This document shows positions 38,309 to 40,811 of a stretch of DNA of 64,000 nucleotides, in pieces; the stretch's first letter is position 1; the number at the start of each line of letters is the position of its first letter. A model generated the notes under the pieces. The model made no database searches. It was not told the origin of the DNA and saw only the letters and a program-made list of their open reading frames with translations. The translations under genes and the position numbers were made by a program. Origin of the DNA: Halorhabdus rudnickae (lineage in GTDB: Archaea > Halobacteriota > Halobacteria > Halobacteriales > Haloarculaceae); contig NZ_CAAHFB010000001.1 in the NCBI RefSeq assembly GCF_900880625.1, positions 2,046,001-2,110,000 on the forward strand, in the 5' to 3' direction.

Positions 38309-39580
38309 TCAGGAGCGTAAGTGTTCCAGCACCGCGTCGGTGTCGTCGGGCACCGGCTCGGGTTCGGTACCGGCCTCGACGGCGGCGTCGGGGTCCTTCA
38401 GGAGGTGGCCGGTCGTCAGACAGACCACCCGCTCGTCGTCGTCGACGACGCCCTCCTCACGGAGTTTCCGCAGGCCGGCGATCGACGCCGCGGAAGCGGG
38501 TTCGACTCCGACTCCCTCCTCGGCGAGCGTCCGCTGGGCGTCGGTGATCTCGTCGTCGCTGACGGCGACGGCCGTCCCATCGGTTTCGCGGATCCCGGGG
38601 AGGGCCTTCGGTGCGTTCACCGGGTTACCGATTCGGATCGCCGTCGCTTTCGTCTCGACGTCGTCCCAGCGTTCGATGTGGTCCCAGCCTTCCTCGATGG
38701 CCTCGACCATTGGGGCCGACCCCTCGGCCTGGACGCCGGTCAGTTTCGGGATCTGACTCTCGTCGATCGCGCCGCTGGTCTCGAGTTCGCGAAAGCACTT
38801 GTACAGCGCGGCGGTGTTGCCCGCGTTGCCGACCGGCAGGACGATCCGATCGGGGAACCCACCCTCCTCGGCGTTGAACTGTTCCATGATCTCCAAGCCG
38901 ATGGTCTTCTGGCCTTCCAGTCGGAAGGGGTTCAGCGAGTTCAGGAGGTAGGCCTCGCCGCGGTCGGCGAGGTTCTGGACGATGTCCAGACACCGATCGA
39001 AGTTGCCGTCGACCTCGAGGATACGTGCGCCGTGGAGGCTTGCCTGTGCGATCTTCCCGGCTGCGACTTTCCCCTCCGGAAGGAGGACGAGTACTTGCAG
39101 TCCAGCCCGTGACCCGTAGGCCGACAGCGCGGCGGAGGTGTTCCCCGTCGAGGCACAGGCCAGCCGATCGACCCCGACCTCCTGGGCGACGCGGACGCCG
39201 ACGGTCATCCCGCGATCCTTGAAACTCCCCGTCGGGTTCATCCCCTCGTGTTTGACCCGGAGGCGTTCGACCCCGATTTCGTCTTCGAGTCGCGGGACCT
39301 CGTGCAGCGGGGTGTTGCCCTCCGGGAGCGTCACGCCCTCTTCGAATGGCAGGGCATCGCTATACCGCCAGACGCCGCCGTGGAACGCCGTCTCGTCGTC
39401 GCCGAAGTCCTCGAAGGTCGGCAGGTCGGCGTACCGGACTTCCAGCAACCCCTCACACTCGTCGCAGGTGTAACGGATCCCCGAAAACGGCGCGAAGGTC
39501 TCGCCACACTCGATACAGGTCAGCCAGACGCCGTCAGTCGACTCAGCTGGTTCGTCCTGGGTGATCTCCAGATAGCTCAT
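38309..39580 (-). CDS. thrC: Threonine synthase
   Basis: 423 residues, PLP fold II. Converts O-phosphohomoserine to threonine. N-terminal zinc-ribbon-like segment LTCIECGETFAPFSG ... YTCDECEG; PLP Lys in MNPTGSFKDRGM; STGNTSAALSAYGSRAG; glycine-rich phosphate cup LPVGNAGNTAALYKCF. ATG at 39580 (MSYLEITQ) is used since the longer frame crosses into the hairpin array. The SerA-like gene lies convergent to it, which suits an amino-acid context. Confidence 0.94.
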   Translation of the reverse strand: MSYLEITQDEPAESTDGVWLTCIECGETFAPFSGIRYTCDECEGLLEVRYADLPTFEDFGDDETAFHGGVWRYSDALPFEEGVTLPEGNTPLHEVPRLEDEIGVERLRVKHEGMNPTGSFKDRGMTVGVRVAQEVGVDRLACASTGNTSAALSAYGSRAGLQVLVLLPEGKVAAGKIAQASLHGARILEVDGNFDRCLDIVQNLADRGEAYLLNSLNPFRLEGQKTIGLEIMEQFNAEEGGFPDRIVLPVGNAGNTAALYKCFRELETSGAIDESQIPKLTGVQAEGSAPMVEAIEEGWDHIERWDDVETKATAIRIGNPVNAPKALPGIRETDGTAVAVSDDEITDAQRTLAEEGVGVEPASAASIAGLRKLREEGVVDDDERVVCLTTGHLLKDPDAAVEAGTEPEPVPDDTDAVLEHLRS

Positions 39581-39647
39581 TGTGTCACCCGACGCAGCGC
39601 AGTGGAAAAAAGCCGCGGATCCACGCGACCACCTTTTTACTTCGTCG

Positions 39648-39900
39648 GGTGCGCCTCCGGCGCACCACTCTCTGCTCACGGCGGCTTCGCCGCCGTATGC
39701 TCGCGGGCCGATGGCCCGCTCGCATGTACGTGGAAGCGAAGCTTCCACGCTATTCGCATGGTCAGCGGGACCAGAGGTCCCGCTCGACTCGGAAAACGTG
39801 GTTCACACGGACGACGTGAGTGTGAGCTCGGGAGATATCGCTCTCCCGGTGGCGAAAAACGACCTGCTCGCGAGCAGTCAAACGCCGTCTTCGACGGCGT
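39648..39900. repeat. Tandem array of eight to nine short-loop hairpins
   Basis: Between argF and thrC, consecutive perfect inverted repeats with different stems: 39648-39666 (8 bp, loop tcc), 39679-39695 (7 bp, ttc), 39703-39719 (7 bp, gat, extended by atgc/gcat), 39729-39749 (9 bp, gaa), 39764-39784 (9 bp, aga), 39802-39826 (weaker, 7 bp), 39829-39848 (7 bp, tatcgc), 39864-39877 (14-bp palindrome) and 39882-39900 (8 bp, ttc). Four are followed by tatgc or gcatg. Stems do not repeat in sequence; only the hairpin form does. Confidence 0.85.
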
Positions 39901-39920: not shown

Positions 39921-40811
39921 TTACCGCTCAGCCAACCACACCAGCAATCCATTCTGGGCGTGCAGCCGGTTCTCCGCTTGGTCCCAGACGATGGCGTTGT
40001 CACTCTCGATTACGTCGTCGGTGACCTCTTCGCCGCGATGGGCCGGCAGACAGTGCATTAGCGTACGGTCGCCGAGCAGCTCTGTTGTGATCTGGAACTC
40101 CTCGAAGGCGTCGAGTTTCTCCTCGCGTTCGTCTTCTTCGCCCATGCTGACGAAGACATCCGTGTAGATCACGTCGGCGTTTTCGACGGCGGCCTCGGGA
40201 TCGTGTGTCGTCTCGGGGGCGGTCCCGATTTCTGCCGCCCGTTCAAGCACGTCGTCGTCGATCCCGTATCCCTCCGGCGTCGCAACGGTCAACTCGAGAT
40301 CGACCATTGCCGCACCGAGGACGAACGACTGGGCGACGTTGTTGCCGTCGCCGACCCACGCGACTCTGACCTCGTCGAAACCGCCGAACTCCTCACGGAT
40401 CGTCAGCAGGTCTGCCAGCGTCTGGCAGGGGTGGGCGTCGTCGGTCAACCCGTTGATGACCGGGACGGTGGCGTATTCGGCCAGCTCTTCAGCGTCGGCG
40501 TGGTCGAACAGCCGCGCCATGATCGCGTCGGCATACCGCGAGACCGCCCGGGCGGTATCCTTGATCGGCTCGCTGTCCCCCAGGTGGATGTCATCCGGTC
40601 CGAGAAAGATCGCGTGACCACCGAGTTTGGTCATTCCCGTCTCGAAGGAAACCCGGGTCCGGGTCGAGGGCTTCTCGAAGATCATCGCGAGCGTTTCGTC
40701 TTCGAGGGGAGTGCCCGCCACCTCGCCGGCCTTGATCGCGGCCGCACGGTCGAGCATGGCCGATAGTTCGTCGCTCGTCAGGTCGTCCACATCGAGTACG
40801 TTGCGTGGCAT
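39921..40811 (-). CDS. argF: Ornithine carbamoyltransferase
   Basis: 296 residues. Carbamoyl phosphate plus ornithine to citrulline. EKPSTRTRVSFETGM (carbamoyl-phosphate loop STRTR), NGLTDDAHPCQTLADLLT (HPCQ) and MHCLPAHRGEEV (HCLP) are all present. Last gene of the arg operon; a hairpin array follows its stop. 2 nt after the argE-like stop. Confidence 0.96.
   Translation of the reverse strand: MPRNVLDVDDLTSDELSAMLDRAAAIKAGEVAGTPLEDETLAMIFEKPSTRTRVSFETGMTKLGGHAIFLGPDDIHLGDSEPIKDTARAVSRYADAIMARLFDHADAEELAEYATVPVINGLTDDAHPCQTLADLLTIREEFGGFDEVRVAWVGDGNNVAQSFVLGAAMVDLELTVATPEGYGIDDDVLERAAEIGTAPETTHDPEAAVENADVIYTDVFVSMGEEDEREEKLDAFEEFQITTELLGDRTLMHCLPAHRGEEVTDDVIESDNAIVWDQAENRLHAQNGLLVWLAER

Follow-up and report, generated by a model that had tools for sequence, protein, structure and literature searches.

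The hairpin array that separates argF from thrC is an enlarged version of a dispersed element that is short and non-coding. The array lies in the window, i.e., the whole 64,000-nt stretch of the Halorhabdus rudnickae genome that was analyzed, and the element is apparently undescribed, as literature searches returned no description of it. The best explanation, to which we assign a probability of about 0.62, is a portable two-way terminator element that spreads to gene ends and accretes hairpins. Under this explanation, the element would spread to new gene ends, hairpin modules would be added or exchanged inside a conserved frame, insertion would commonly leave a long direct repeat of the 3′ tail of the gene, and this tail repeat could later undergo tandem amplification.

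Eight perfect inverted repeats with stems of at least 7 bp, as well as a weaker ninth, are located within 253 bp (39648-39900; Table 1). The loops of the perfect repeats are 3 nt long in six cases and 6 nt in one, and the remaining repeat is a loopless 14-bp palindrome. The original prediction had described these repeats, their mostly three-base loops, the loopless palindrome and the TATGC or GCATG spacers after hairpins, all of which are present. Its statement that nearly every base belongs to a hairpin is overstated, since the eight perfect repeats cover about 150 bases (59%), or about 68% of the 253 when the ninth is included. It had also proposed a comparison with shuffled sequence, and here none of 200 dinucleotide shuffles folds as well as the array (single-strand fold, z = −6.8 as RNA and z = −7.8 as DNA). 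The view that the array is not a CRISPR holds as well, since a CRISPR array needs identical direct repeats with unique spacers and only a single 7-nt direct repeat was found inside this one. A coding origin is ruled out, because a Pfam search of the ORFs overlapping the window copy gave no domain. At the gathering score, no Rfam covariance model matched the element.

A chance cluster of palindromes in GC-rich DNA could draw on single 7-bp stems, which are frequent by chance in this genome. Such an origin is nevertheless refuted, with a probability that is negligible, by the z values of about −7, by the homologous copies elsewhere and by the uniqueness of the array in an unbiased 464-kb sample (the window plus 20 × 20 kb of the same genome), in which no other group of at least two 3-nt-loop hairpins with stems of 7 bp or longer is seen. 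As this sample shows such clusters not to be common, they are not a general haloarchaeal background. The array is nevertheless not unique, as it has dispersed relatives. The original prediction overlooked the dispersed family, the conserved arms and the T-run signals on both strands.

Table 1. Features of the element copy and its neighbors at the argF-thrC junction, in window coordinates. The boundaries of blocks a and b are ambiguous by a few bases.
Feature	Position	Strand	Basis or remark
argF, ornithine carbamoyltransferase	39921..40811	-	Pfam OTCace, OTCace_N; 3′ end abuts element
Hairpin H9 = IR3 of canonical element, ACGCCGTC TTC GACGGCGT	39882..39900	.	sister species G021 has an identical hairpin here
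Hairpin H8 = IR2 of canonical element, loopless palindrome	39864..39877	.	
T5C run (TTTTTC) read from argF, candidate first argF terminator signal	39854..39859	-	sequence; PMC7237163
Block a, extra twin-hairpin unit: H6 39803-39825 (weaker ninth repeat) and H7 39829-39848	39802..39850	.	absent in G021, present in G049
Left conserved core arm, CCACGTTTT on - strand; second T run for argF	39793..39801	-	
Block b, extra four-hairpin unit	39667..39784	.	absent in G021 and canonical cores
Block b hairpins H5, H4, H3, H2	39764-39784, 39729-39749, 39703-39719, 39678-39696	.	
IR1, variable core hairpin, GGTGCGCC TCC GGCGCACC	39648..39666	.	
Right conserved core arm, CCACCTTTTT; T5 run	39629..39638	+	
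T6 run between element and thrC start, possible thrC promoter box	39606..39611	-	conserved in G021, G049, G001
thrC-like PLP-dependent synthase, downstream of element	38309..39580	-	Pfam PALP; argF-thrC order same in G021, G049

The core of the dispersed element has the frame CCACG-TTTTT...variable hairpin...AAAAA-GGTGG, in which the two arms are inverted repeats of one another. A plain element is about 110-150 bp long and, along the preceding gene, follows the order IR3 - (TTTC) - IR2 - TTTTTCGC - CCACGTTTTT - IR1 - AAAAAGGTGG, with the terminal inverted repeats CCAC-G-T5C and GA5-G-GTGG. Pattern and similarity searches of the 3.36-Mb genome that contains the window, on which the genome-wide counts rest, gave at least 13 element sites. 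Among them are two long copies that have partly diverged, one at C1:1379079 (89% over 162 bp) and the other at C1:2242606 (88% over 157 bp); shorter copies lie at C1:2040850, C4:50663 and C1:2137071. Plain copies are found directly 3′ of tRNA-Pro and tRNA-Ile genes, and others lie a few nucleotides past stop codons. The strict core pattern occurs in 24 of the 37 sampled Haloarculaceae genomes with up to 21 copies per genome, and the reversed pattern, used as a control, was absent from each of the 37. In an order-wide sample, 16 of 79 genomes have the core pattern, several other families among them. We regard it as nearly certain that the element is dispersed, that its arms are conserved and that its hairpins covary.

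The hairpins keep their shape while their sequences change. Among 127 distinct cores, the stem sequences vary widely and the pairing is retained. When the 5′ and 3′ halves were exchanged between copies, the mean inner minimum free energy was −15.3 kcal/mol in these chimeras compared with −22.8 kcal/mol in the real cores, and a perfect stem of at least 6 bp was seen in 19% of the chimeras versus 72% of the cores. A compensatory pair change can be followed at IR3, which reads ACGCCGTC-GAA-GACGGCGT in the window and in the sister genome G021 but ACGCTGTC-GAA-GACAGCGT in G001 and G036. Counts of such covariation are not counts of independent events, because the copies are related.

The argF-thrC junctions of related genomes were compared by anchors, the closest ArgF proteins being those of Halorhabdus salina and H. 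amylolytica (89-90% identical). The sister genome G021 has a plain three-hairpin element at this junction, with an IR3 identical to that of the window, and G049 has a long array resembling the one in the window. The window copy corresponds to a plain element plus block a, of two hairpins, and block b, of four. In H. salina (L031), block b has a two-hairpin form (H5+H2), and a two-hairpin form is also seen at L006. The frame of block a, TTTTTCGCCACC-hairpin-GAGC-hairpin-CCACG, is constant across six distinct copies that differ in their stems, and two adjacent repeats at one locus (L166) differ exactly by block a, one with the hairpin pair and one without it. Because the plain form is present in the sister species and the extra blocks in the window, the array has quite probably grown by the addition of hairpin blocks, and the addition of twin-hairpin modules would be the simplest reading. 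The direction appears to be gain and not loss because long forms are rare. The proposed comparison of the argF locus thus bore out a difference in hairpin number between related species (G021, H. salina, G049 and the window). Four explanations had been suggested for the array, and the one that gained support is a mobile unit whose growth comes from added hairpins, with plain, intermediate and long forms at argF. A structured, regulatory RNA or a protein-binding array was neither demonstrated nor required.

The position of the element points to a role at transcript ends. At least 66 of 72 cores have T4-6 followed by C immediately 5′ of the core, a gene stop lies within 250 nt upstream of 62 of the 72, and in 16 of them the stop codon of a convergent gene is 0-7 nt from the GGTGG end. 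With T-C runs preceding the cores and convergent stops adjoining GGTGG, a T run is thus met near the start of the element on both strands. In a Haloferax volcanii reporter test, T5C ended 95% of transcripts (PMC7237163). On the basis of position, the T runs on both strands and this T5C result, the element is likely a two-way transcription terminator. Transcription of argF would end at T5C (39859-39854) or at the following T run, and transcription of the opposite strand at T5 (39634-39638). The T runs would have the hairpins as a backup, and argF and thrC transcripts would be kept apart. The window copy itself abuts the co-directional thrC, with no convergent gene.

A direct repeat of the 3′ tail of the neighboring gene, 26-294 nt long, was observed at 39 of the 71 cores with enough flanking sequence, a set partly selected for tandem spacing; about 10 tail repeats were found among some 30 copies not selected in this way (L188-L217). 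All 39 repeats begin 0-10 nt past GGTGG and copy the stretch ahead of the element. Among control T5C sites without the core, a tail repeat was found at 2/149 anywhere and at 0/149 at the fixed offset. The last 19-20 codons of argF recur behind the element at about 14 of about 40 Haloarculaceae loci, with up to three tails, in Halorhabdus, Halorientalis, Haloarcula, Halomicrobium, Halosimplex and Halovenus. At one locus (L193), the repeat is identical at 81/81 positions and ends within the stop codon. One array (L218; G014 C1:2702300-2706400) has ten 171-bp tandem units, each of element plus gene tail, and eleven tails, the last of which is diverged; the near-perfect identity of the units suggests recent amplification. 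A related-genus locus carries the element and a tail copy in three genomes (G032, G069 and G043) and a single tail without the element in two others (G068 and G056), in a comparison where the downstream genes differ. At the window copy, no tail repeat is present. The earlier suggestion of a recombination zone is partly apt, given how often long direct repeats of gene tails flank copies of the element.

These facts favor an insertion that duplicated a long stretch of the target and was followed by amplification; the alternative is that tandem duplication came first and loss followed. Mobile insertion that duplicates the gene tail is plausible, at somewhat below even odds. Most tandem arrays may be mere amplification, because their neighboring cores are identical.

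Several further observations were made at gene tails. In G001 and G036 (L274 and L275), argF has its own element, and a pair of genes for a PIN-domain toxin and a MazE/AbrB-type antitoxin separates it from a second argF tail, which is diverged, 120 nt long and followed by another element and then thrC. The arrangement looks as if toxin-antitoxin cargo had entered the 3′ end of argF. Elements at L002 (G000 C1:1379079) and L196 (G021) appear to end beside convergent vapC-like genes, so called by nucleotide resemblance to the PIN gene of the argF locus. Degenerate second tRNA 3′ ends are seen between the tRNA and the element at a tRNA-Pro (L006, ~1309-1420) and a tRNA-Arg (L154, ~1398-1500). Outside Haloarculaceae, Natronococcus pandeyae has a possible short copy of the argF tail (KALLSWLLE; L068, 5959-6018) at a locus where the strict core was not found. 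In Halorhabdus salina (L031), the contig end falls in the duplicated argF tail, thus tail repeats can break short-read assemblies.

The tail repeats and the hairpins could also be passive by-products, i.e., ordinary GC-rich intergenic terminators could gain hairpins through template-switching (snap-back) replication errors and seed tandem duplications of gene tails, with no mobile element involved. This would account for stems that are palindromic regardless of sequence, for some adjacent copies that differ in the hairpin interior alone (at L223, tails are 99% and cores 78% identical, with the outer parts the same), and for the identical neighboring cores of most tandem arrays. Replication slippage leaves unexplained, however, the conservation of the linkers and of the arms CCACG-T5 and A5-GGTGG among genera and beside genes unrelated to one another. 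The fixed start of 39/39 tail repeats behind GGTGG also speaks against it, as do several arrays in which there is one tail more than elements and the final tail is the most diverged. We consider this explanation unlikely, though it keeps some weight.

Less can be said for att sites of integrative elements with gene 3′ ends as their target, with the tail repeats as attL/attR and the hairpins as recombinase sites resembling integron attC; we hold this to be improbable. Gene 3′ ends are indeed repeated, tRNA 3′-tail copies are found near two elements, and the toxin-antitoxin pair sits between argF and a second tail, but most repeats enclose the 110-150-bp non-coding element alone. Each tail copy matches its own host gene, which differs from site to site, so no constant attP is visible. 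Integron cassette attC sites were rejected, as the integron integrase profile TIGR02249 stayed below cut-off in six genomes. Searches of plasmids, phages and viral contigs returned no match to the element in any of the three, and none to a parent transposon with matching ends; from these searches and the integrase profile, no transposase, integrase or autonomous relative could be tied to the element. A structured regulatory RNA, for instance a leader or sRNA controlling thrC or argF, would agree with the strong fold, the covariation and the position upstream of thrC. It is very improbable, given that the element is also found behind unrelated genes and tRNAs, that the first T run read from argF precedes most of the array and that Rfam gave no match.

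The portable terminator element preferred here joins three topics, namely haloarchaeal transcript ends between packed genes, the spread of repeats without a transposase, and the origin and change of palindromes. As an insertion signature, the duplicated gene tails (among them the eleven-tail array and the argF events in at least six named genera) are unusual, and they allow the mechanism to be tested by comparing strains. Where Rfam has no model, the element offers a concrete, searchable model family. We tentatively raise the possibility of a new class of small archaeal mobile element, which would combine stop-codon-specific insertion, duplication of tens to hundreds of bases of the target-gene tail, a two-way terminator, self-insertion of twin-hairpin modules, and turnover of stems with their shape kept.

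The element shares T runs and/or hairpins close to stop codons with the hairpin-cluster intrinsic terminators of bacteria (PMC8355165) and with T5C terminators in H. volcanii (PMC7237163), but it differs from them by its conserved two-armed frame, T runs on both strands, dispersal as a repeat family, module insertions and tail duplications. The PATEs and SMRs of Haloquadratum are likewise short, non-coding, haloarchaeal, free of a transposase, built on palindromes or inverted repeats and nested by insertion into one another; they cause no target duplication, and the palindromes that PATEs carry near their termini are related to the ends of IS605 (PMC3119063). Unlike PATEs, copies of the present element are often flanked by 26-294-nt repeats (39/71 cores) and have freely varying stems. 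The repetitive and double hairpin elements of fungal and sponge mitochondria are also small hairpin or twin-hairpin units with intergenic insertion and tandem stacking, but they belong to another lineage, terminator arms are not reported for them, and the Allomyces units have no flanking duplications (PMC2800124). As a short non-coding element with terminal inverted repeats, the element is MITE-like; MITEs, however, have a short fixed duplication, and the repeats flanking the element are long, variable and made of gene tails. Bacterial REP/BIME sequences are extragenic palindromes that occur 3′ of genes as pairs and clusters, function at mRNA ends and have stems conserved in sequence. The element resembles them in the placement of its palindromes but conserves structure and arms only. 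Judged from these comparisons, the element appears to be terminator-like and to resemble small hairpin repeats, yet it would fit none of the Rfam, PATE, MITE, REP/BIME or CRISPR families.
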